From Burkholderiaceae bacterium (GTDB taxonomy: Bacteria; Pseudomonadota; Gammaproteobacteria; Burkholderiales; Burkholderiaceae_C), in assembly GCA_016790175.1 (NCBI GenBank), contig JAEUPI010000167.1, positions 1 to 40,501 on the forward strand: a DNA stretch of 40,501 nucleotides. Direction: 5' to 3'. Below are positions 2,602-15,101 of the stretch, in pieces. A program made the position numbers and the translations under genes. The notes below the pieces were generated by a model, which did no database searches, had not been told where the DNA came from, and saw only the letters and a program-made list of their open reading frames with translations. How positions within the stretch are numbered: the first letter of the stretch is position 1; each line of letters opens with the position of its first letter.

Positions 2602-3066
2602 ATGGCATCGGTCAACAAGGTCATCCTGATCGGCAATCTCGGCCGCGACCCGGAGGTGCGCTATACGCCCAGCGGGTCCGCGGTGTGCAACGTGAGCCTG
2701 GCCACCACCCGCAACTGGAAGAGCAAGGACAGCGGCGAGCGCCAGGAGGAGACCGAGTGGCATCGCGTGGTCTTCTACGACCGGCTGGCCGAGATCGCCG
2801 GCGAGTACCTGAAGAAGGGCCGCCCGATCTATGTGGAAGGCCGGCTGAAGACCCGCAAGTGGCAGGACAAGGAAGGCAAGGACAACTACACCACCGAGGT
2901 CATCGCCGATCAGATGCAGATGCTCGGCAGCCGCGAGGGTATGGGCGGTGGCGGCGATGAGCATGGCGAGCCGCGCAGCGCCCCGGCGCCCCGCGCGCCC
3001 GCAAGCAAGCCGGCCGCCAAGAGCGCCACGGGCTTCGACGACATGGACGACGACATCCCGTTCTAG
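2602..3066 (+). CDS. ssb: Single-stranded DNA-binding protein
   Basis: A 154-residue SSB. The N-terminal OB fold (about 1-110) opens [20 protein letters not shown] and carries the family aromatic residues (W, F and Y around 54-60, and [12 protein letters not shown]). A disordered Gly/Pro/Ala-rich linker follows, then the acidic tip DDDIPF that docks RecQ and other repair proteins. It coats ssDNA as a tetramer. The ATG at 2602 is chosen because AAGGAGC lies eight bases upstream and because the family start (MASVNKV) is there; the open frame extends further upstream without family similarity. It is transcribed divergently from recQ and ends at a strong intrinsic-type hairpin. Confidence 0.98.
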
Positions 3067-3085
3067 ACCTCGTCGGCCCGGCCTC

Positions 3086-3109
3086 AACGCCCCGCTTCGG
3101 CGGGGCGTT
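3086..3109 (+). terminator. Hairpin terminator after ssb
   Basis: Ten-base-pair perfect stem AACGCCCCGC / GCGGGGCGTT closing a TTCG tetraloop (3096-3099), the very stable C(UUCG)G type. The bases after it (GTCGTTGG) are only moderately T-rich. It begins 19 bases after the ssb stop. Confidence 0.8.
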
Positions 3110-3160
3110 GTCGTTGGTACGCGCCGTCGTTCATGGTCAGGCCCGCGCAGGTCGGCGCGA

Positions 3161-3172
3161 GGGGGGGGGGGG
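3161..3172 (+). repeat. Run of twelve G
   Basis: A homopolymer of 12 G immediately upstream of the -35 and first operator of the RND operon (two bases before TTGATA). Such tracts can vary in length by slippage, but they are also error-prone in sequencing. Confidence 0.9.
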
Positions 3173-3174
3173 CT

Positions 3175-3202
3175 TGATACCCTGACGGGTATTTGCTAAC
3201 AT
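3175..3202 (+). promoter_or_regulatory. Promoter of the RND/OsmC operon
   Basis: -35 TTGATA (3175-3180), 16-base spacer, extended -10 TGC-TAACAT (3194-3202). Predicted initiation six or seven bases later falls on the ATG at 3209, so the message should be leaderless; there is no Shine-Dalgarno. Both hexamers are embedded in the two palindromes described as operators, so a bound repressor would block RNA polymerase. Confidence 0.6.
3177..3192 (+). promoter_or_regulatory. Operator 1, ATACCC-N4-GGGTAT
   Basis: Perfect 6+6 inverted repeat ATACCCTGACGGGTAT lying between the -35 and the -10. A G/C tract flanked by ATAC/GTAT arms is the operator style of CsoR/FrmR/CstR-family repressors, one of which is encoded at 7920-8210 in the same gene run. 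That this protein binds here is inference. Confidence 0.6.
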
Positions 3203-3216
3203 ACCGGCATGGGTAT
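3201..3216 (+). promoter_or_regulatory. Operator 2, ATACC-N6-GGTAT, over the start codon
   Basis: ATACCGGCATGGGTAT is a second copy of the operator pattern (5+5 perfect arms), 24 bases downstream of the first and containing the ATG at 3209-3211. The outer flanks of the pair are also mirrored: CTTGATACCC at 3173-3182 and GGGTATCAAG at 3211-3220 are exact reverse complements. Confidence 0.55.
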
Positions 3217-4288
3217 CAAGCATCTTCGTTCTCTGCGACCGCTTGCCGCTTGGATGGCCGGGCTGGCCCTGGTGTCCACGACGGCGCTGGCCGATCCGGT
3301 GCCGGTGTTGACCGTGGCGCCGCATTCGGCCAGTGCTGCTTTCGAACTCGTCGGCGTGGTGCAGGCCGTGCGTCAGGCCACGCTGGCCGCGCAGGTGGGC
3401 GGCAATGTGATCAGTCTGCCGGTCAAGGCCGGCGACCGGCTCAAGACCGGCCAGCTGGTGGCGCGACTCGATGCGCGCGATGCACAGGCGGCGCTGCAGC
3501 GCGGCGACGCGGGCGTGGTGCAGGCGGAGGGCGTGTTGCGCAGCGCGAAACTGGCGGCCGAGCGTTCGCGTGAACTGCGTCGTCAGGGTTTCATCAGCCA
3601 GGCCGCCCTCGATGTCGCCGAAACCGAGCTCTCCACCGCGCAGGCAGGGGCCGACCAGGCTCGCGCGGCGCGCAGCCAGGCGGCACTCGCGCAAGCCTTT
3701 GCCACGCTGACCGCACCGTTCGAGGCGGTCGTGCTGGCCACGCACGTCGAGCAGGGCGATCTGGCGCTGCCCGGGCGCGCGGTGGCGACCTTGTATGCGC
3801 CGGGTGCGCTGCGTGTGGCGGTCCAGGTGCCGGCCTCGCGTGCCGGCGCCGCGCGCGGCGCGCGGCGCCTGAGCGTGCAGTTGCCCGACGGACAGACGGT
3901 GACCCCGGTGCAGCAGACCTTCCTTCCCGGCACCGACCCGGTGTCGCAGACGGTCGAACTGCGTCTCGACCTGGACACGCGCGCCGCGCAGGCCCTGCTG
4001 CCGGGGCAGTCGGTGACCGTTCAGTTCGAGCCCGCGGCGACGGCGGTTTCAGCAGCAGCGTCGACGCCGTCGGCGGCACCATGGGTGCCCCGAAGCGCCG
4101 TCTTGCAGCGGGGCGAGCTGACAGCGGTGTACGTGGCGCAGCGCGATGGCTTCGCGCTGCGCAGCGTTCGCACCGGCGTGGCTGCGGCCGACGGCCGGGT
4201 GCCGGTGTGGGCCGGTTTGCAGCCGGGTGAGCAGATTGCCGCCGACGCGGTGCGTGCCGGCTTGGCCGGCGCCACGCCGGCGCGCTGA
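3209..4288 (+). CDS. RND efflux periplasmic adaptor (membrane fusion protein)
   Basis: A 359-residue adaptor that would link the inner-membrane RND pump to an outer-membrane channel. It has a Sec signal with basic n-region (MGIKHLRSLR), a hydrophobic core and a cleavage site near ALA-DP (about 28). The first lipoyl half-motif follows (VGGNVISLPVKAGDRLKTGQLVARLD, about 63-90), then a short alpha-helical hairpin rich in Ala, Arg and Glu (about 95-165). Next come the second lipoyl half (LTAPFEAVVLATHVEQGDLALPG), a beta-barrel, and a membrane-proximal domain containing PRSAVLQRGE. There is no metal-binding His/Met cluster of the CusB type. Start: the ATG at 3209 gives the complete signal peptide and is preceded by a promoter but no Shine-Dalgarno. 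The pump gene follows 18 bases downstream. The substrate cannot be read from the sequence. Confidence 0.88.
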   Translation: MGIKHLRSLRPLAAWMAGLALVSTTALADPVPVLTVAPHSASAAFELVGVVQAVRQATLAAQVGGNVISLPVKAGDRLKTGQLVARLDARDAQAALQRGDAGVVQAEGVLRSAKLAAERSRELRRQGFISQAALDVAETELSTAQAGADQARAARSQAALAQAFATLTAPFEAVVLATHVEQGDLALPGRAVATLYAPGALRVAVQVPASRAGAARGARRLSVQLPDGQTVTPVQQTFLPGTDPVSQTVELRLDLDTRAAQALLPGQSVTVQFEPAATAVSAAASTPSAAPWVPRSAVLQRGELTAVYVAQRDGFALRSVRTGVAAADGRVPVWAGLQPGEQIAADAVRAGLAGATPAR

Positions 4289-4306
4289 TTCGAGAGTGGA
4301 TCGACC

Positions 4307-7300
4307 GTGAGGACCGACGCCGCACTCGGCATCTCGGGCCGGCTGGCCCGGGCCTTCCAGGCCAATGCCATCACGCCGCTGCTGGCGTTGGTGCTGATGC
4401 TCGTGGGCCTGTTCGCCGCGCTGATCACGCCGCGCGAAGAGGAGCCGCAGATCAACGTGACGATGGCCAACGTGATCGTCGCCTTTCCGGGCGCCTCGGC
4501 CACCGACGTGCAGAACATGGTGGCGCGACCGGCCGAGCAGGTGCTGGCGCAGATCGCCGGCATCGAACATACGACCTCGGTGTCGCGGCCGGGCGTGGCC
4601 GTGATGACCGTGCAATTCAAGGTCGGCGTGCCGCGCACCGAGGCCCTGGTGCGGCTGTACGACGTGCTCAACGCGAACCAGGACTGGCTCCCGCGCGATC
4701 TCGGCGCCCTGGCGCCCATCGTCAAGCCCAAGGGCATCGACGACGTGCCGATCCTCGCGGTCACGCTGTGGCGGCGCGAGGCCATGAGCGCGCTCGAGCT
4801 GCAGAGCATCGCGCACACGCTGGAAACCGAGCTCAAGCGCGTGCCGGGTACCCGCGAGGTGCAGACGATCGGCGCTCCGGGCCGCGTGGTCCAGGTGGCG
4901 CTCGACCCGGCGAGGCTGCGCGAACGAGGCGTCGACGTGACGCGCCTGCGGTCCACGATCGCCGCGGCCAACCTGGGCACACCGTCGGGTGCGGTGCTCG
5001 AATCCGCGGGATCCGATATCGGCCGGATGCTGGCGGTGCAAACCGGCGAGTTCCTGAGGTCGGCCGACGATCTCGGCGATCTGGTGGTCGGTGTGCAGGC
5101 GGGCCGGCCGGTCTATCTGCGCGAGGTGGCCCGGATCGATTCTGCGGCGGCCCAACCCGGCGCCTACGTCTGGTTCACGCCGGGCCGCGCGGCCCAGACG
5201 GCCGGCGTCGCTGCGTCTTCGGGATCGGCCGCGTCCGCGGCGCCCGGCGTGCATCCGGCCATCACGATGGCGGTCACCAAGAAGCCCGGCCAGAACGCCG
5301 TCGACGTGTCGCGCGCGCTGCGACAGCGCCTCGACGAGATGCGCAACACCGTGCTGCCGCCGGACGTGGAGCTGACGGTGACCCGCGACTACGGCGAGAC
5401 GGCTGCTGAAAAGGCCAACAAGCTGATCAGCAAGCTGGCGTTCGCCACCGGCTCGGTGATCCTGCTGGTCGGGCTCGCGCTGGGGCGCCGCGAGGCGGTG
5501 ATCGTCGGCTCGGCGGTGATCCTCACGCTGACGGCAACGCTCTTCGCGTCGTGGGCCTGGGGCTTCACGCTGAACCGGGTGTCCCTGTTCGCGTTGATCT
5601 TCTCGATCGGCATCCTGGTCGACGATGCGATCGTGGTGGTGGAGAACATCCATCGCCATCAGCAACTCGAGCCGGGCAAACCGCTCGCACAGATCATTCC
5701 GGCGGCGGTCGACGAGGTCGGCGGCCCGACCATCCTGGCCACGCTGACGGTGATCGCCGCGCTGCTGCCGATGGCCTTCGTGACCGGGCTGATGGGTCCG
5801 TACATGGGGCCGATCCCGATCAACTCGTCGCTCGGCATGGCGCTGTCGCTGGCCATTGCATTCACCGTCACGCCGTGGCTGGCACTCAAACTGATGAAGC
5901 CGCACGGCGCTGGGCATACCGCGGGTGGGGGCACAGCGGCCCCCGGACGGCTGCAGCGTGTATCGCAACGCCTGCTGACACCGCTGCTCGCGAGTGCGCG
6001 CAAGCGCTGGCTGCTGGCCGCCGGCATCGTGGTGGCGTTGGGCCTGAGCCTGGGGCTGGCGGCGGTGCAGGCCGTGGTGCTGAAGATGCTGCCCTTCGAC
6101 AACAAGTCGGAGTTCCAGGTCGTGGTCGACATGCCGGCCGGCACGCCGCTGGAAGACACGGCCGCGGCACTGCAGGCGATGGGGGCGTTTCTCGCGCGTC
6201 AGCCCGAGGTGCGTGACCTCCAGGGCTATGCCGGTACCGCGGCGCCGATCACCTTCAACGGCCTGGTGCGTCAGTACTTCTTGCGCGCTGATGTCGAGCT
6301 GGGAGATCTGCAGGTCAATCTGGTCGACAAGGCGCACCGGCATGAGCAGAGCCACGCGATCGCGCAGCGCCTGCGACCCGAGCTGGAGAAGATCGCCGCC
6401 GCCCACCGGGCGCGCGTCAAGGTGGTCGAGGTGCCGCCGGGTCCGCCGGTGCTGAGTCCGCTGGTGGCCGAGGTCTATGGTCCCGACGAAGCCGGGCGGC
6501 AGCAGCTGGCCCGGCGACTGGCCGAGGCCTTCGCGGCCACGCCGGGCGTGGTCGGCGTCGACACCACGCTGAAGGAGGACGCGCCACGCGCCTTCATCCG
6601 CGTGCAGCGGCAGCGCGCCGAATCACTCGGCATTCCGGTGTCGCAGGTGGCCCTGACGGTGCAGGCGGCTCTCTCGGGCAGCGACGCCGCCTACCTGCAC
6701 GATGGCCAGGCGAAATATCCGGTGCCGGTGCGGCTGCAGCTGCCGCGTGAATCGCAGGTTGGCCTGGAAGGCCTGCTCGCGTTGCCGCTACGTGCCGCAA
6801 GCGGCCAGCTGGTACCGCTGTCGGAGCTTGTGCGCGTGGAGCGCGGCGTGATCGACAAGCCGCTCTTCACCAAAGACCTGCAAGCCGTGAGCTATGTGAT
6901 CGGCGATGTGGCACCCGGGCACTCCGGCGCCGCTGCGCAGGCGGGGACCGACTCGCCGCTCTACGGCCTGGCCGCGATCCGCTCACGCCTGGCGGCCGCC
7001 GCGCTGCCGGCGACCGGCGCGCTCGGCGAATACTGGATCTCGCAGCCAAGTGACCCCTACCGCCAGTACGCGATCAAGTGGGACGGCGAGTGGCAGGTCA
7101 CTTACGAGACCTTCCGCGACATGGGCGCCGCCTATGCCGTGGGGCTGGTGCTGATCTATCTGCTGGTGGTGGCGCAGTTCAAGAGTTACCTCACGCCGTT
7201 GATCATCATGGCGCCGATTCCGCTGACCCTCATCGGCGTGATGCCAGGCCATGCGCTGCTGGGCGCGCAATTCACCGCGACATCGATGATCGGCATGATC

Positions 7301-7606
7301 GCGCTGGCCGGCATCATCGTGCGCAATTCGATCCTGCTGGTCGACTTCATCGAGCTGCAGGCCAAGGCCGGCATGCCGTTCCGTGACGCCGTGGTCGCTT
7401 CGGCGGCCGTGCGCGCGCAGCCGATCGCGCTGACCGCGCTGGCAGCGATGCTCGGCGCCTTCTTCATCCTCGACGACCCGATCTTCAACGGACTCGCGGT
7501 CTCGCTCATCTTCGGCATCTTCGTCTCCACCGCGCTCACGCTGGTGGTGATTCCCGTTCTGTACTACGCCGTGTACCGGCGAATCCATGAAGGAGCTCAG
7601 TCATGA
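4307..7606 (+). CDS. RND efflux transporter permease, AcrB/HAE-like
   Basis: A 1,099-residue proton-driven inner-membrane pump with two repeats of six helices and two large periplasmic loops. The N-terminus carries TM1 and then PREEEPQI. TM4 contains the proton-relay pair Asp439-Asp440 in GILVDDAIVVVENIHRH. In the second half GIIVRNSILLVDF puts an Arg (about 1006) where, aligning by eye, AcrB has its Lys940. It lacks the Met-rich features of CusA-type metal pumps, so it falls with the broad hydrophobe/amphiphile group; the substrate is unknown. An Ala/Ser-rich insert (SSGSAASAAPG) lies in the first periplasmic loop. It starts with GTG (4307), with a weak GAGAGTGGA ahead. Its stop overlaps the ATG of the DUF2892 gene (ATGA). 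No outer-membrane factor gene is nearby, so a TolC-type partner must be encoded elsewhere. Confidence 0.93.
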   Translation: MRTDAALGISGRLARAFQANAITPLLALVLMLVGLFAALITPREEEPQINVTMANVIVAFPGASATDVQNMVARPAEQVLAQIAGIEHTTSVSRPGVAVMTVQFKVGVPRTEALVRLYDVLNANQDWLPRDLGALAPIVKPKGIDDVPILAVTLWRREAMSALELQSIAHTLETELKRVPGTREVQTIGAPGRVVQVALDPARLRERGVDVTRLRSTIAAANLGTPSGAVLESAGSDIGRMLAVQTGEFLRSADDLGDLVVGVQAGRPVYLREVARIDSAAAQPGAYVWFTPGRAAQTAGVAASSGSAASAAPGVHPAITMAVTKKPGQNAVDVSRALRQRLDEMRNTVLPPDVELTVTRDYGETAAEKANKLISKLAFATGSVILLVGLALGRREAVIVGSAVILTLTATLFASWAWGFTLNRVSLFALIFSIGILVDDAIVVVENIHRHQQLEPGKPLAQIIPAAVDEVGGPTILATLTVIAALLPMAFVTGLMGPYMGPIPINSSLGMALSLAIAFTVTPWLALKLMKPHGAGHTAGGGTAAPGRLQRVSQRLLTPLLASARKRWLLAAGIVVALGLSLGLAAVQAVVLKMLPFDNKSEFQVVVDMPAGTPLEDTAAALQAMGAFLARQPEVRDLQGYAGTAAPITFNGLVRQYFLRADVELGDLQVNLVDKAHRHEQSHAIAQRLRPELEKIAAAHRARVKVVEVPPGPPVLSPLVAEVYGPDEAGRQQLARRLAEAFAATPGVVGVDTTLKEDAPRAFIRVQRQRAESLGIPVSQVALTVQAALSGSDAAYLHDGQAKYPVPVRLQLPRESQVGLEGLLALPLRAASGQLVPLSELVRVERGVIDKPLFTKDLQAVSYVIGDVAPGHSGAAAQAGTDSPLYGLAAIRSRLAAAALPATGALGEYWISQPSDPYRQYAIKWDGEWQVTYETFRDMGAAYAVGLVLIYLLVVAQFKSYLTPLIIMAPIPLTLIGVMPGHALLGAQFTATSMIGMIALAGIIVRNSILLVDFIELQAKAGMPFRDAVVASAAVRAQPIALTALAAMLGAFFILDDPIFNGLAVSLIFGIFVSTALTLVVIPVLYYAVYRRIHEGAQS

Positions 7607-7824
7607 CCGTCGACCGTTTGATCCGCATCTTTGCCGGGAGCTTCATCCTGCTGTCGCTCGCCCTGGGCGTCGAGGGCAGCCCGCTGTTCGTCAGCCGCTG
7701 GTGGTTGGCCTTCACGGCCTTCGTCGGCGCCAATCTGCTGCAGTTCGGCATCACGCAGGTCTGCCCGCTGGGTTGGATCCTGAAGAAGCTGGGCGTGCCG
7801 GAGGCCGTGCCCCAGGCGCATTGA
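7603..7824 (+). CDS. DUF2892 (YgaP-like) inner-membrane protein
   Basis: 73 residues, two predicted transmembrane helices (about 8-27 and 30-50), then the family C-terminal signature CPLGWILKKLG with one conserved Cys next to the membrane. DUF2892 also forms the membrane part of YgaP rhodaneses and is often found in sulfide or persulfide detoxification loci such as those of the BigR type. It is translationally coupled to the RND pump (ATGA overlap), with AAGGAG eight bases before the ATG. Its biochemical role is not established. The neighbouring repressor and OsmC suggest thiol chemistry. Confidence 0.85.
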   Translation: MTVDRLIRIFAGSFILLSLALGVEGSPLFVSRWWLAFTAFVGANLLQFGITQVCPLGWILKKLGVPEAVPQAH

Positions 7825-7919
7825 CCCACCGAGGCAGCTCATCGCCAACCCCGATCCACGACGAGGCAGCGACAATGGCGACCGAACGAACACCCCCCGG
7901 GGTTCCGGAGGCCTGCACC

Positions 7920-8210
7920 ATGGCAAAGCTCAACGACGATGCCGCGCGCACCGACCTGCTCAACCGCCTCAAGCGGGCCGAAGGCCAGCTGCGCGGCGTG
8001 CAGCGCATGATCGAGGACGGCGAGGCCTGCCTGGAGATTGCCGGTCAGATGGCGGCCGTGCGCAAGGCGCTCGACAGCGCCTACGTGCGCATGACCGTGT
8101 GCTTCATGCAACAGGAGCTGCAGTCCCGGCTGGCGCCCGACGCCAAGCGCGAGCAGGCGCTGGCCGGTGTGCTCGACGAGGTGCAGACGCTGTTGGGCAA
8201 GGTGCGCTGA
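7920..8210 (+). CDS. CsoR/FrmR/CstR-family transcriptional repressor with atypical cysteines
   Basis: 96 residues, all-helical DUF156 fold. The first helix has RLKRAEGQLRGVQRMIEDGEAC with Cys37, and the second helix has the family core AAVRKALDSAYVRM. The second Cys is Cys61. Aligned by eye with FrmR (Cys35, His60) and CsoR (Cys-His-Cys), the His position is Phe62, the third ligand position is Glu66, and Cys61 is one place early. The metal sets of CsoR and RcnR are therefore not present. The sensor may use two thiols, as CstR does, though with spacing 24 rather than 29. The ATG at 7920 has GGAG nine bases upstream and fits the family length; an in-frame ATG at 7875 would add 15 residues. It probably controls the operon through the palindromes at 3177-3216 (inference). 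Confidence 0.88.
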   Translation: MAKLNDDAARTDLLNRLKRAEGQLRGVQRMIEDGEACLEIAGQMAAVRKALDSAYVRMTVCFMQQELQSRLAPDAKREQALAGVLDEVQTLLGKVR

Positions 8211-8279
8211 ACACCGCGGTCCTCGCAGGGCCGGCGCGTCGTCGCTCTCCTGCCCTTCTGCGCGAAGGAAACCGAACCT

Positions 8280-8729
8280 ATGAGTCAGGAACGCGTGTCC
8301 GTGCAGCTGGTGCAACGCCAGGACTATCAATTCGACAACCGCTTCGACGCCGGGGTGCCCGGCCTGCTCACCGACGAGCCGGCGCCGCTGGGTTCAGGCC
8401 TGGGGCCTTCGCCCGTGCAGCTGCTGGCCAGCGCGGTGGGCAACTGCCTGGGCGCCTCGTTGTTGTTCGCGCTGCGCAAGTTCAACCCGCAGGCCGCCGG
8501 CCGCATCGCCGCCGAGGTCAGCGCCGAAACCGGACGCAACGCCGATCGGCGGTTGCGCGTGACCGGCATCCAGGCGCAGTTCACGATCGGCGACGACGTC
8601 GCCGGCTACAAGCACCTGGACCGGGCGCTCGCCACCTTCGAGGATTTCTGCACCGTGACGGCCAGCGTGCGCGCCGGCATTCCCGTGACGGTGCAGGTGT
8701 TCGACGCCGAGGGCAATCAGCTCAAGTGA
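8280..8729 (+). CDS. OsmC/Ohr-family thiol peroxidase
   Basis: 149 residues. The two redox cysteines of the family are present: Cys56 in SAVGNCLGASLLFAL (peroxidatic) and Cys124 in FEDFCTVTASVRAG (resolving), close to the positions in E. coli OsmC. The family reduces organic hydroperoxides, and members have been linked to persulfide handling. The protein acts in the cytoplasm as a dimer. GAAGGAAACC lies before the ATG. It sits 69 bases after the repressor gene and 10 bases before the anion-channel gene, so it is probably part of the same message. Whether the substrate is a peroxide or a persulfide cannot be decided from sequence. Confidence 0.92.
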   Translation: MSQERVSVQLVQRQDYQFDNRFDAGVPGLLTDEPAPLGSGLGPSPVQLLASAVGNCLGASLLFALRKFNPQAAGRIAAEVSAETGRNADRRLRVTGIQAQFTIGDDVAGYKHLDRALATFEDFCTVTASVRAGIPVTVQVFDAEGNQLK

Positions 8730-8739
8730 TGACGAGACG

Positions 8740-9753
8740 ATGGAATCCACAAGAGCCAAGTTGAAGTTCATGATGCCGGGCTGGTATGCCGTGGTGATGG
8801 GCCTCGCCGGTCTCTCGCTCGCCTGGCATCGGGCCAAACCGGTGCTGGGCGACGGTGCCGAGGCGGCGTCGCTGGCGATCGGCGTGCTGGCTGCCGCCGT
8901 CTTCGCCGTGCTCGCCGTCGCCACGGTGCTGCGCGGCTGGCGCCACCCCGAGGCCTGGGCCGAGGACCGCAAACACCCGGTGCGCCACACCTTCATCGCG
9001 GCGCTGCCGATCGCCGTGCTGCTGCTGGCCACCGTCGGCGTGGCGCTGTTCGGTGCGCACCCGCTGGCCGATGCGCTGTGGTGGCTGGGCAGCCTGGCGC
9101 AGTGGTTCGTCACCGCCTGGGTGCTCGCGCGCTGGTGGCGAGGGGCACAAGCAGGCGGGCTGCAGTGGGCCGGCGTGACGCCGGCGCTGTTCATTCCCAT
9201 CGTCGGCAATGTGCTGGTCCCGCTGGCCGGCGTGCCGCTGGGCCATGCCGAATGGGCGGCCGCTCAATTCGGCGTCGGGTTGCTGTTCTGGCCGGTGGTG
9301 CTGACGCTGATCGTGGTGCGCATCGTCGTGCAGGGGCTGTGGCCCGAGCGGCTGCTGCCGACGGCGTTCATCTTCATCGCACCGCCGGTGGTCGTGGGGC
9401 TCGCGCTGCTTCAATTCGGCGCGCCGGTGCTCTGGGCTTGGGCATGCTGGGGCATGGGCGTGTTCTCGTTCATCTGGGCGGCTTCGCTGACCAGACGCAT
9501 CGCGGGCATGCCGTTCGGCCTGCCCCATTGGGGCATGAGCTTTCCGATGGCCGCGCTAGCAGCGCTCACGCTGCGGCTGGCTCAGCCGGGGCAGCCGATG
9601 GCCTGGGCCGGCCTGTTGCTGCTGGCCCTGGCATCGCTGCTGATTGCGGGCCTGGCGCTCGGCACCCTGCGCGGATTGCGAGACGGCAGTCTGCTCGCGC
9701 CTGAACCGGTGGCCCCGATCGTGCCGGCTGCGTCGTCTGCCCGACCGGCCTGA
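8740..9753 (+). CDS. TDT/SLAC1-type anion channel or exporter (TehA/Ssu1-like)
   Basis: 337 residues with about ten hydrophobic helices. It opens KFMMPGWYAVVMGLAGLSLAW, the typical start of the tellurite-resistance/dicarboxylate transporter (TDT) family, whose members include TehA, plant SLAC1 and the yeast sulfite exporter Ssu1. Internal segments such as LWWLGSLAQWFVTAWVL and TPALFIPIVGNVLVPLAG fit the family. The C-tail is Ala/Pro-rich. It begins 10 bases after osmC and is the last gene of the run. The family transports small anions; sulfite or another sulfur anion would suit the context but is inference. There is no hairpin in the 56 bases before the next gene. Confidence 0.85.
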   Translation: MESTRAKLKFMMPGWYAVVMGLAGLSLAWHRAKPVLGDGAEAASLAIGVLAAAVFAVLAVATVLRGWRHPEAWAEDRKHPVRHTFIAALPIAVLLLATVGVALFGAHPLADALWWLGSLAQWFVTAWVLARWWRGAQAGGLQWAGVTPALFIPIVGNVLVPLAGVPLGHAEWAAAQFGVGLLFWPVVLTLIVVRIVVQGLWPERLLPTAFIFIAPPVVVGLALLQFGAPVLWAWACWGMGVFSFIWAASLTRRIAGMPFGLPHWGMSFPMAALAALTLRLAQPGQPMAWAGLLLLALASLLIAGLALGTLRGLRDGSLLAPEPVAPIVPAASSARPA

Positions 9754-9774
9754 ACCCCGCGCGCCGCAAGCGGC

Positions 9775-9780
9775 TACCAT
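9775..9780 (+). promoter_or_regulatory. Possible -10 of the substrate-binding protein gene
   Basis: TACCAT 30 bases before the ATG at 9810. It would give a leader of about 23 bases containing GAGGGCATCGAG as ribosome site. No clear -35. Confidence 0.25.
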
Positions 9781-9809
9781 GCCCCGCGTTCGGACTTGAG
9801 GGCATCGAG

Positions 9810-11315
9810 ATGGCAAAGCGTGGTTTGTGCATGAGGTGGATGGCGGCCGTGGCGGGCCTGGCTGCCACTTTGGTGGTCGCACCCGTGGTGCAGGCCCAGG
9901 CAAAGAAGGACACCGCGGTGATCGCGATGACGCTCGAGCCGCCGGGGCTGGACCCGACGGCCGGCGCGGCCTCGGCAATCGGCGAGGTGGTGCACTACAA
10001 CGTGCTGGAAACGCTGACCAAGATCGAGTCCGACGGCAGCATCAAGCCGCTGCTGGCCCAGAGCTGGACCGTCACCCCCGACAACAAGACCTGGGCCTTC
10101 AAGCTGCGCTCGGGCGTGAAGTTCCACAACGGCGAGCCGTTCAATGCCGCGACGGTGAAGTTCGCCTACGAGCGCGCGGTAGCGCAGGGCTCGGTGAACA
10201 AGGACAAGGCGGTGTTCGCCAACATCCTCAACATCGCCAGCACCGACGAACACACGGTGATCCTGACGCTGAAGAACCCGAATCCGGACTTCCTGTTCCA
10301 GCTCGGGCAGACCACGGCCTCGATCGTCGAGCCCAAGAGCGTCGCCACCAACAACACGCAGCCGGTCGGCACCGGGCCGTACCGGCTGGAGTCCTGGAAC
10401 AAGGGTTCGGCGATCGTGCTGACGCGCTGGGACGGCTATCGCGATCCGAAGGCGGCCAAGCTGCGCCGCGTGACGATCCGCTTCATCAGCGACGCGGCGG
10501 CGCAGGTCGCGGCGCTGCTGTCGGGCGACGTCGACGCGTTTCCGCGCGTGGCCGCGGCACGCAGCCTTTCGCAGTTCCAGAACAACCCGCGCTACCAGGT
10601 GCTGATCGGCGGCTCACGCTCCAAGACGATTCTTGCGATCAACAACAAGCGCAAACCGCTCGACGATGTGCGTGTGCGCCGTGCCATCGCGATGGCCATC
10701 GACCGCAAGGCGGTGATCGAAGGCGCGGCCGAGGGCTTCGGCACGCCCATCGGCAGCTTCTACGTGCCCGGCGCGCCGGGCTACGTAGACCTCACCGCGG
10801 TCAATGCCTATGCGCCCGAGAAGTCTCGCGCGTTGCTCAAGGAGGCGGGCATCACCTCGCCGCTGGAGCTGACGATGAAACTGCCGCCGACGCCCTATGC
10901 GCGCACCGGTGGCGAAGTGATCGCGGCACAGCTGACCAAGGTGGGCATCAACGCCAAACTCGAGAACGTCGAGTGGGCGCAGTGGCTGTCGGGTGTGTAC
11001 GGGCAGAAGGCCTACGACCTCACGGTGATCGCGCACGTGGAGCCGCTGGACTTCGGCAACTTCGCGCGGCCCGGCTACTACTGGGGCTACGAGTCCGCGG
11101 CGTTCAACGCCCTGTGGGCCAAGATCAACTCGACGGCCGACGCCAAGGAGCGCAACGGCTACCTCGCCGATGCGCAGCGCCTGGTGGCCGACGACGCCGT
11201 GGCCGCCTACCTCTACCAGCCGACCTGGATCACTGTGGCCAAGGCCGGCCTGAAGGGGCTGTGGAAGGACGCACCGATCCTCGCCAACGACCTGTCGGCA
11301 CTGTCGTGGCAGTAG
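9810..11315 (+). CDS. ABC transporter substrate-binding protein, peptide/nickel family 5
   Basis: 501 residues with a Sec signal peptide (MAKRGLCMRW..., hydrophobic core to VVQAQA at about 30) and the family 5 (DppA/OppA/NikA) fold. Visible signatures: TLEPPGLDPT, YNVLETLTKIESDGSIKPLLAQSW, WAFKLRSGVKFHNGEPFNAATVKFAYERA, VGTGPYRLESW and VRRAIAMAIDRKAVIEG. It would capture oligopeptides or a related ligand in the periplasm. GAGGGCATCGAG precedes the ATG. No permease or ATPase gene adjoins it: the upstream gene is the anion channel and the downstream gene is a convergent phosphatase. It is therefore an orphan binding protein, and its ligand cannot be predicted. Confidence 0.93.
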   Translation: MAKRGLCMRWMAAVAGLAATLVVAPVVQAQAKKDTAVIAMTLEPPGLDPTAGAASAIGEVVHYNVLETLTKIESDGSIKPLLAQSWTVTPDNKTWAFKLRSGVKFHNGEPFNAATVKFAYERAVAQGSVNKDKAVFANILNIASTDEHTVILTLKNPNPDFLFQLGQTTASIVEPKSVATNNTQPVGTGPYRLESWNKGSAIVLTRWDGYRDPKAAKLRRVTIRFISDAAAQVAALLSGDVDAFPRVAAARSLSQFQNNPRYQVLIGGSRSKTILAINNKRKPLDDVRVRRAIAMAIDRKAVIEGAAEGFGTPIGSFYVPGAPGYVDLTAVNAYAPEKSRALLKEAGITSPLELTMKLPPTPYARTGGEVIAAQLTKVGINAKLENVEWAQWLSGVYGQKAYDLTVIAHVEPLDFGNFARPGYYWGYESAAFNALWAKINSTADAKERNGYLADAQRLVADDAVAAYLYQPTWITVAKAGLKGLWKDAPILANDLSALSWQ

Positions 11316-13493: not shown

Positions 13494-14600
13494 TCAGACC
13501 CGATCGCGAGCGGCGGCGATCACGCCGCCGCCGAGACAGACGTCACCGTCGTACAGCACGGCCGACTGACCCGGCGTGATGGCCCATTGCGGCTCATCGA
13601 ACGCCAGTGCGAATCCGGCGTCGCGGGCTTCGAAGCGGCACGCAGCGTCTGACTGCCGGTAGCGCGTCTTGGCCGCATAACGGCCGCTGGCGGGAGCTGT
13701 GCCTGCCACCCAGGCGACGTCGTCGGCTTCCAGCGCGGGCGAGAGCAGCCAGGGATGGTCGTGCCCCTGCACGACCCTCAGCACATTGCGCGCGAGGTCC
13801 TTGCGCGCCACGAACCACGGCGCATGCGCGGAGCCGCCGCGTGTGCCCCTGTCCTTCACGCCGCCGATGCCCAGCCCCTGGCGCTGGCCCAGGGTGTAGA
13901 AGCTCAAGCCCACGTGCCGGCCCAGCACACGGCCGCGGTCGTCCTCGATCGGACCGGGCTCTTGACTGAGGTAGCGGTTGAGGAATTCGCGGAAGGGCCG
14001 CTCGCCGATGAAGCAGATGCCGGTGGAGTCCTTCTTCTTCGCGTTCGGCAGGCCGATCTCGGCGGCGATGCGGCGCACCTCTGTCTTCTTCAGCTCACCC
14101 ACCGGGAACAGCGTCCTGGACAACTGCGCCTGATCGAGCCGATGAAGGAAGTAGCTCTGGTCCTTGGCGGGATCCAGGCCCTTGAGCAGTTCGAAGGCGC
14201 CGCTGCGCGACCGCACACGCGCGTAATGTCCGGTGGCGATCCGCTCGGCGCCCAGGCGCAGCGCATGGTCGAGGAAGGCCTTGAACTTGATCTCGGCGTT
14301 GCACAGCACGTCGGGGTTCGGCGTACGGCCGGCCCGGTACTCGCGCAGGAACTCGGCGAACACGCGGTCCTTGTACTCGGCCGCGAAGTTCACGTGCTCG
14401 AGCTCGATGCCGATCACGTCGGCCACCGCGGCGGCATCGACGAAGTCGACATTGCTGGAGCAGTAGGCGCCGTCGTCGTCATCTTCCCAGTTCTTCATGA
14501 AGATGCCGATCACCTCGTGCCCCTGCTGCTTGAGCAGCCAGGCGCTGACCGCGGAGTCGACCCCGCCGGACAGGCCGACCACCACACGAGACAGACGCAC
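13494..14600 (-). CDS. mnmA: tRNA-specific 2-thiouridylase MnmA
   Basis: 368 residues, standard length. It adds the 2-thio group to U34 of tRNA-Lys, -Glu and -Gln, using ATP and sulfur relayed from IscS. The PP-loop SGGVDS is at 11-16. The catalytic pair is Cys100 ([12 protein letters not shown]) and Cys196 ([13 protein letters not shown]), with spacing as in E. coli (Cys102/Cys199). The TGHYARV and KDQSYFLH motifs and a C-terminal beta-barrel are also present. The start is GTG at 14600, the only codon that keeps the full [12 protein letters not shown] strand. There is no Shine-Dalgarno, but TAGAAT lies six bases upstream and overlaps the stop codon of the NUDIX gene. The adjacency to a NudJ-type gene matches E. 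coli. Confidence 0.97.
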
Positions 14601-14606
14601 GGCCCG

Positions 14607-14612
14607 ATTCTA
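14607..14612 (-). promoter_or_regulatory. Putative -10 of mnmA (leaderless GTG)
   Basis: TAGAAT on the minus strand (five of six matches to the sigma70 -10), six bases before the GTG at 14600. It shares its first three bases with the NUDIX stop codon. It may give mnmA a second, leaderless transcript in addition to readthrough. Confidence 0.35.
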
Positions 14613-15101
14613 TTTTTTCGGTGCGGCCAGCACCGACGCGTCGGCATAGACCAGCTCCAGCGGATAACGCTGTCCGGCCAGGTGGTCGTCGATGCAGCGC
14701 ATCAGCAGCGGGCTGCGGTGTCGCGCGAGCTGCGCGCGCAGCTCGTCCGGCGTGAGCCACAAGGTGCGCACGATCTCGGGATCGAGCATGCGCCCCGGCA
14801 GCGGCTCGGACACCTCGCCCACGAATGCGAGCCGCAGATAGGTCACGTCGTCGGCCGGCACGGCGCGCCGTACCCGCGACAGGTACACGCCCAGCAGCGC
14901 CGTGGGCGTGAAGCGGCAGGTGGTTTCCTCGAGCGCCTCGCGCACAACGGCCTGCAGCGGTGTTTCACCGGGATCAAGATGACCTGCCGGATTGTTGAGT
15001 TTCAGGCCCTCCGGGGTGTGCTCCTCCACCAGCAGGTAGCGGCCCTCGCGTTCGACGATCGCGGCCACCGTCACATTGGTTTTCCATCGGGTGTCGACCA
15101 T
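14610..15101 (-). CDS. NUDIX hydrolase, NudJ-type
   Basis: 163 residues. The NUDIX box is [20 protein letters not shown] followed by TT, so the usual Gly after the EE pair is Thr, as tolerated in NudJ-type proteins. The N-terminus [20 protein letters not shown] and the [12 protein letters not shown] segment match the phosphatase group that includes E. coli NudJ, which acts on HMP-PP and nucleoside di/triphosphates. In E. coli nudJ also lies directly upstream of mnmA, as here (nine-base gap), so orthology is likely but not proven. TAGCAT sits exactly six bases before the ATG and no ribosome site is visible. It diverges from pntA. Confidence 0.9.

Follow-up and report, generated by a model that had tools for sequence, protein, structure and literature searches.

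What does a tripartite efflux pump do in one run with a CsoR-family repressor, an OsmC protein and an anion channel? The question is raised by six genes on a 40,501-nucleotide contig of a Burkholderiaceae bacterium (assembly GCA_016790175.1, contig JAEUPI010000167.1, positions 1 to 40,501), which is referred to here as the window; it forms contig C30 of a draft genome that spans 3.93 Mb and is 82% complete. We read the run as a sulfane-sulfur (persulfide/polysulfide) stress and export operon with a probability of about 0.66, where we infer both the inducer and the substrate. Computed directly were the gene set and its conservation, the operator and its co-distribution with CsoR genes and, in relatives, sulfide:quinone reductase (SQR) genes within the run and operators ahead of sulfur genes. 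All six genes lie on the + strand at 3209-9753, with gaps of 18, -4, 95, 69 and 10 bp. An earlier reading of the letters without database searches (the sequence-only reading) had named the same families and gaps; all matched exactly, and Pfam supports each family. The genes are as follows.

3209-4288, + strand: periplasmic adaptor (MFP/HlyD); HlyD_3 36 bits, RND_mfp TIGR01730 160 bits against a cut-off of 94.9
4307-7606, + strand: RND permease of 1099 aa with a GTG start; ACR_tran PF00873 490 bits; gap of 18 bp after the adaptor
7603-7824, + strand: DUF2892 / YgaP-like transmembrane protein of 73 aa; PF11127 (YgaP-like_TM) 45 bits; ATGA overlap with the pump gene
7920-8210, + strand: CsoR/RcnR (DUF156) family repressor; PF02583 (Trns_repr_metal) 70-72.3 bits, cut-off 22.8; gap of 95 bp
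8280-8729, + strand: OsmC-family protein with two conserved cysteines; PF02566 46 bits; gap of 69 bp
8740-9753, + strand: SLAC1/TDT-family channel, candidate sulfite/anion exporter; PF03595 160 bits; gap of 10 bp

One hundred genomes of the family were searched for the pump, DUF2892, repressor, OsmC and TDT proteins, and the positions of the matches were compared at a distance of 10 kb. The pump gave 43 matches in 42 of the genomes, and DUF2892 was found within 10 kb of 41 of these. Repressors of the window's class (at least 55% identity) lay within this distance of a pump in 16 of 19 cases, as against 0 of the next 19 weaker CsoR matches, a count that omits one match of similar strength (on a contig other than the pump's) and 17 weaker rows. 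OsmC was near the pump for 18 of 30 strong matches (13 weak rows excluded) and TDT for 12 of 20 (11 weak rows excluded). Two distant pumps (41-42% identity) likewise have this repressor class alongside, and one of the three exceptions to the 16 of 19 is a 17th pump-linked repressor, in genome G017 (locus L127), beside a pump fragment of 120 bits. The co-occurrence of pump, DUF2892 and repressor is far above chance. These three stay together across relatives, whilst OsmC and TDT are frequent but optional and the set is not a fixed six; moreover, the gene order downstream of DUF2892 differs between relatives. The operon core is adaptor, pump and DUF2892, with a regulator of the CsoR or ArsR type, optional OsmC and TDT, and SQR sometimes added. 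At L127 (4373-5982), the repressor, DUF2892 and OsmC genes stand behind the short pump fragment, and a full-length pump with DUF2892 lies elsewhere in G017 (L128), an apparent case of duplication and decay.

The region ahead of the adaptor contains one promoter and two overlapping dyads.

3174-3202, + strand: sigma-70-like promoter TTGATA-17-TAACAT, the sole promoter-like site in 2900-10000 (shuffles mean 0.3)
3177-3192, unstranded: operator dyad 1, ATACCC-TGAC-GGGTAT (TAC-N8-GTA), overlapping the -35 element
3201-3216, unstranded: operator dyad 2, ATACCGGCATGGGTAT (TAC-N8-GTA), overlapping the end of the -10 element and the adaptor start codon

Position 3173, at which the sequence-only reading had begun its interval, is the base directly before the -35 element. 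Because the TAC-N8-GTA dyads at the pump promoter resemble the TAC/GTA operators of the CsoR family, self-regulation is the straightforward reading, with binding predicted. The draft genome holds a single CsoR-family match, the repressor at 7920-8210, and the exact pattern ATACCC-N4-GGGTAT occurs once in its 3.93 Mb, at this promoter. A second operator was sought before the repressor gene, and none was found with two or fewer mismatches, the closest being a 3-mismatch site at 7890. Nor did a wider regulon emerge in the window's own genome, where one of the two other sites, each with 1 mismatch, falls within a long open reading frame (C214) and the second precedes a gene that is TetR-like by eye (C216). 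The adaptor start codon lies inside dyad 2, about 7 bp past the -10 element, and the operon transcript may be nearly leaderless; the same-genus genome L112 may resemble it in this.

The dyad was first spotted by eye in 13 fetched pump promoters and then tested. Among the fetched loci with this repressor class, every readable pump promoter (13/13) carries at least one TAC-N8-GTA dyad and 9/13 carry it in tandem, window included, but the 13/13 is a description and not an independent test; the tests are the contrast with ArsR loci and the genome-wide excess of sites. The dyad also precedes the runs that begin with tolC at the two distant pumps (2/2), giving 15/15 readable fetched loci overall. 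In Markov-resampled sequence the chance of a dyad is 0.7% per 300-bp region. For the contrast, 74 named loci had a readable promoter, of which 11 have CsoR nearby (loci with both CsoR and ArsR being counted here), 22 have ArsR without CsoR and 41 have neither. The operator was found in 9 of the 11 CsoR loci, namely the divergent L064 and eight whose repressor retains the cysteine pair; L078 and L083, which lack the operator, both carry the other CsoR class. It was found in none of the 22 named loci with ArsR and no CsoR.

The second test concerned 16 genomes, in which the pattern with at most one mismatch occurs at 59 sites vs 9 for a reversed control pattern, the control sites numbering only 9, two of which have a nearby gene start outside the Pfam scan. 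The 59 comprise 9 pump promoters, 2 sites before csoR genes and 48 further sites. Among these 48, 40 fall outside the called genes, and a gene begins within 300 bp of 41; the corresponding numbers for the 9 control sites are 3 and 2. All 48 were gene-called, 40 selected proteins were scanned with Pfam, and other pcm genes were recognised by their likeness to that of L205. Sulfur-handling or pcm/pcm-tolC genes follow the operator at 15 of the 48: at 12 the run includes rhodanese, SQR/FCSD, Sulf_transp, MBL-fold, DsrE or thioredoxin genes, and three more have pcm, alone or with tolC, but no rhodanese. A pcm gene starts a few bases after seven of the sites; tolC comes downstream of it in six (in L222 the contig ends), with rhodanese in between in four. 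Eight more precede a rhodanese gene, an FCSD-like-TDT-MBL run with a divergent rhodanese, two Sulf_transp runs, and MBL-fold, SQR, thioredoxin and DsrE genes, respectively. Moreover, in G108 the operator stands before a csoR-tauE-MBL-fold run of the other CsoR class as well as before its pump. DUF302 genes follow the operator at four sites (L218, L239, L243, L249), and the remaining 29 of the 48 have no evident sulfur role or are inside genes.

The pcm-tolC sites would, unexpectedly, tie the supply of tolC to the control of sulfur genes, and the TolC channel that is missing from the window's run would be under the same control in several relatives. At L205, L209, L220-L223 and L228 the operator is within about 6 bp of the start of pcm (isoaspartyl methyltransferase), and several of these have a different RND pump alongside. 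A gene that is DUF302-like by eye directly follows the pump in L060. At L217 (site 3992) and L227 (site 4046) the operator stands ahead of similar multihaem cytochrome genes (Cytochrome_cB, PF11783).

Sulfur genes also recur around the pump itself. The named loci are the best 80 of 593 confirmed pump matches and therefore describe close relatives, mostly Burkholderiales and other betaproteobacteria with some gammaproteobacteria; they share some genomes with the family-genome loci (e.g. L033/L117), and the two sets were not summed. Genes were called with a simple codon model, and the names thioredoxin-like, cytochrome bd-like and AhpD-like derive from one scanned member or were given by eye. 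DUF2892 was found in 64/80 (iterated profile) and the adaptor in 76/80, the window not being counted. The fetched flanks contain the ArsR cluster (25 of 80 loci), SQR/FCSD flavoproteins (24), TolC (20), rhodanese (16), thioredoxin (13), OsmC (12), CsoR (11), MBL-fold dioxygenase-like proteins (8) and TDT (8). In 19/80 the pump shares its run with an SQR/FCSD gene. In L115, L117, L120, L121 and L122, SQR is inserted between the pump (or its fragment) and DUF2892, which amounts to 5/17 loci having the window's repressor class and a pump, window included. Three run-member SQRs, together with the gene after an operator site in L241, scored 516-592 bits to solved sulfide:quinone reductases over near full length. 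The ArsR cluster is mixed, with 13/26 proteins having a cysteine pair that presumably resembles that of BigR.

Which kind of sensor, then, is the repressor? It matches PF02583 above the cut-off, and the RLXR DNA-binding motif is present as R16-L17-K18-R19. In the alignments its cysteines, Cys37 and Cys61, are spaced by 24 in the window and in relatives, and among the family-genome sequences of the class Cys37 is kept in 18/19 and Cys61 in 19/19. A copper or nickel sensor was considered and rejected, the X-Y-Z ligands being C37-F62-E66 and not C-H-C or C-H-H: the window's repressor has Phe62 and Glu66 at positions that metal sensors fill with His and with Cys or His. FrmR was rejected because residue 2 is Ala (MAKL start), not Pro2, and where the start of a relative can be seen it is MS, MT or MA; FrmR requires Pro2 beside the conserved Cys (PMC5016687). 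The sequence-only reading had called the repressor CstR-like, an identity that fails on the cysteine spacing, 24 here vs the 29 (Cys31/Cys60) that defines CstR. The CstR-type neighbourhood of SQR, persulfide dioxygenase (PDO), rhodanese and sulfite exporter is seen in relatives only; the window has just TDT, OsmC and DUF2892. By its residues the repressor is a CsoR-family subclass not matched to a described one, and not a canonical CstR, CsoR or FrmR. It joins those CsoR-family proteins whose cysteines are arranged unlike the copper, nickel, formaldehyde and persulfide types compared. A second CsoR class (L131, L133-L138, L140-L142) likewise has its cysteines 24 apart, so that the Cys-X23-Cys design extends beyond this operon; in L137, L140 and L141 of this class the fetched stretch contains a TAC-N8-GTA dyad.

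The pump is cysteine-free in 71/80 full-length sequences, window included, which are kin and not independent; among other RND pumps this is the case in 3/33 resolved controls, one partial (38 taken, 5 unresolved). The window adaptor has no cysteine and so no lipobox, and the adaptor is cysteine-free in 65/78 loci. Because both proteins lack cysteine, the substrate of the pump would not modify either of them. The DD proton-relay motif is present in 80/81 pump genes and Arg at what we take to be the AcrB Lys940 position in 81/81, window included. The window pump falls below the NCBIfam cut-off for CusA/CzcA metal pumps (228/701 bits) and below the AcrB and MdtB/C equivalog cut-offs (156/2150, 230/1584 and 252/1774 bits). 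Amongst the accessory proteins, one cysteine column of DUF2892 is kept in 47/47 clustered members, and the two of OsmC in 13/13 and 12/13. The TDT channel scored 124 bits with the TehA equivalog model vs a cut-off of 342, and its relatives in the PDB are TehA and SLAC1; as a precedent within the TDT family we take the sulfite exporter Ssu1.

Put together as a sulfane-sulfur stress and export operon, the parts would work as follows. The CsoR-family repressor encoded by the fourth gene would bind the two TAC-N8-GTA dyads over the pump promoter and hold the whole run off. The CsoR family is tetrameric, and reactive sulfur would bridge or modify Cys37 and Cys61 on different subunits, upon which the repressor would release the DNA. 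Adaptor, RND permease and a TolC-type channel encoded elsewhere would then expel reactive sulfur species or their adducts from the periplasm or inner membrane. Judging by their families, DUF2892 and OsmC may handle sulfane sulfur or the thiol damage that it causes, and the TDT channel may export an anionic product such as sulfite. The SQR that shares the run in some relatives would be the enzyme making the sulfane sulfur. That the run is one self-regulated stress operon for reactive sulfur had been proposed from the letters of the window, and the proposal gains support from the promoter operator and, in relatives, from SQR in the run and operators at sulfur genes.

Several observations weigh against this reading, beyond the descriptive standing of the promoter count given above. 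The operator also occurs in 9/41 named loci with neither CsoR nor ArsR nearby; eight of these nine genomes have a CsoR-family protein elsewhere and none was found in the other (L046), and the readable CsoR proteins of the eight are of the other Cys-X23-Cys class, so the operator does not belong to the window's class alone. One of the genomes searched, G027, has no excess of sites (2 vs 2), and 33/48 further sites have no evident sulfur or pcm-tolC gene, four being the DUF302 sites and eight lying within called genes. Within the repressor class, L009 is without Cys37, and the divergent repressor of L064 has Ser for Cys61, yet there are dyads in its promoter. Few cysteines are a general trend of RND pumps, the 3/33 controls also having none, and 13/78 adaptors have a cysteine. 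At home, the operator with two or fewer mismatches is no commoner than the reversed control (14 vs 12), the pcm promoter of the window's genome is without an operator dyad, the window operon is without SQR, and the wider regulon is visible in relatives only.

The literature bears on the same question from both sides. In Azospira suillum PS, Dsui_3440-3443 encode an unknown gene, an RND pump, SQR and an adaptor and are highly expressed during H2S oxidation, with Bar-seq support, and expression of a DUF2892 gene outside the operon is raised about 10-fold (PMC5358917). Deletion of that whole operon left the rate of H2S oxidation unchanged in the same report (PMC5358917), a further point against our reading. 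Amongst the relatives of the window operon, L063, L087 and L091 have the same gene order, MFP-SQR-RND-DUF2892, and L079 has MFP-SQR-RND, its contig ending inside the pump. The Azospira operon was compared by gene order only, which again counts against the reading. It has no CsoR repressor, OsmC or TDT reported, and the window operon has no SQR. RND pumps have also been named as likely targets of sulfane-sulfur repressors of the SqrR/BigR/sHdrR type (PMC12423496); these ArsR repressors belong to a different family, and ArsR loci without CsoR have no TAC-N8-GTA operator (0/22). The link between RND pumps and sulfur is partly in print already, in these two reports (PMC5358917, PMC12423496). The sequence-only reading knew of no described system with this gene set, which holds insofar as the literature covered yielded none that pairs this repressor class with an RND pump (no search was aimed at the operator or at the missing cysteines alone), and does not hold for RND pumps in sulfur contexts as such.

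Relatives of the window operon have neighbours similar to those of the CstR-controlled cst/yrk operons of S. aureus and B. licheniformis, in which a DUF156 repressor with two cysteines is accompanied by SQR, persulfide dioxygenase or sulfite-exporter genes. The descriptions compared list no RND pump for those operons, and the CstR cysteines, Cys31/Cys60, have a spacing of 29 (PMC9774590), not the 24 of Cys37/Cys61. A functional parallel is offered by TTHA1953 of Thermus thermophilus, a CsoR-like repressor of sulfur oxidation in which disulfide formation lowers DNA binding and whose operator, like that described here, is TAC/GTA-based (PMC10318464). It differs in the spacing of Cys39/Cys68 (29), in its operator, TACNNTACNNNNGTANNGTA, and in controlling Sox and not a pump. 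The operator of Streptomyces lividans CsoR is a TAC/GTA inverted repeat around G-tracts, and the RLXR motif of that protein corresponds to RLKR here; however, TAC and GTA are separated there by X9, vs N8 here, and the protein senses copper (PMC3902906).

How well do other explanations account for these data? The genes could instead serve a general thiol, electrophile or organic-peroxide stress, with a repressor that senses oxidants or electrophiles, an OsmC that removes hydroperoxides and a pump that expels an organic toxicant, in which case the sulfur neighbours would reflect shared thiol stress only. We consider this unlikely, though deserving of attention. OsmC keeps both conserved cysteines, RND pumps (we assume) usually carry organic molecules, and some operators precede non-sulfur genes such as those for FMN reductase and Crp-type regulators. 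Thioredoxin genes (13/80) and an AhpD-like gene (5/80, by eye) also recur near the pump. However, sulfur in particular is indicated by the SQR gene inside the run and by the operators that precede rhodanese, SQR, Sulf_transp and csoR-tauE-MBL genes.

Export of metal or metal sulfide, in which the pump would relieve metal stress following sulfide exposure, appears improbable. Metal-sulfide export is what the Azospira authors themselves proposed for their pumps (PMC5358917). The CsoR family is rich in metal sensors, and the adaptor has below-cut-off matches to the CzcB and CusB models. Set against this are the C-F-E ligand positions of the repressor, the score of the pump with the CusA/CzcA model, far short of its cut-off, and the lack of cysteine in the window's pump and adaptor.

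It is more improbable still that the pump operon ends after DUF2892 and that repressor, OsmC and TDT are separate units, neighbours by chance. The 95- and 69-bp gaps flank the repressor gene and the order behind DUF2892 varies in relatives, as such an arrangement might. However, no + strand terminator-like site was found between 3209 (the adaptor start) and 9168, the scan of 2900-10000 gave no promoter-like site before the repressor gene, which also lacks an operator with two or fewer mismatches, and the presence of the operator at the pump promoter tracks that of CsoR genes. A formaldehyde response under an FrmR-like repressor can be set aside almost entirely: the similarity to the FrmR model is weak (25 bits vs a cut-off of 133), the FrmR-specific Pro2 (PMC5016687) is not present, and the annotated genes include no formaldehyde dehydrogenase, although no profile search was aimed at it.

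Returning to the sulfane-sulfur reading, a bolder version of it is possible, which we put forward tentatively and regard, as a whole, as less likely than not. The pump would be a tripartite system dedicated to exporting zero-valent sulfur (polysulfide, persulfide or S8), taking it out of the periplasm or inner membrane and across the outer membrane; it would be free of cysteine to keep its own cargo from modifying it, in one run with SQR in some relatives, and under a new Cys-X23-Cys class of sulfane-sulfur sensor whose regulon in relatives supplies TolC. To our knowledge, the route by which reactive or elemental sulfur leaves bacteria through two membranes is an open question; such an exporter, if real, would explain how membrane-formed sulfur gets out of the cell. 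Short of this, gene order, a defined operator and a predicted regulon in relatives connect a conserved pump with sulfide oxidation and with the handling of sulfane sulfur, which makes the question directly testable in cultured strains.

Two further features lie upstream of the promoter.

3086-3109, unstranded: GC-rich hairpin after ssb, the upstream limit of the operon; perfect 8-bp arms (script search)
3161-3172, unstranded: run of 12 G, directly 5' of the -35 element

The hairpin is probably the terminator of ssb, and a weak terminator-like site was found within it at 3093-3107. The run of 12 G is the sole G or C run of at least nine in the window and is missing from the same-genus L112; it could be a slippage site affecting promoter strength, or an artefact of the draft assembly.

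Downstream, a gene for an SBP_bac_5 solute-binding protein (9810-11315) starts 56 bases past the end of TDT and may belong to the operon transcript. The protein has below-cut-off likeness to nickel- and glutathione-binding models, and in L112 a homologue likewise comes after OsmC. Lastly, mnmA and a NUDIX gene are found at 13494-15101, 3.7 kb downstream of the operon, and their homologues adjoin this repressor in L035, L038, L042, L089, L125 and L126. The recurrence of mnmA, a tRNA sulfur-transfer gene, and NUDIX near the operon looks like plain local synteny.

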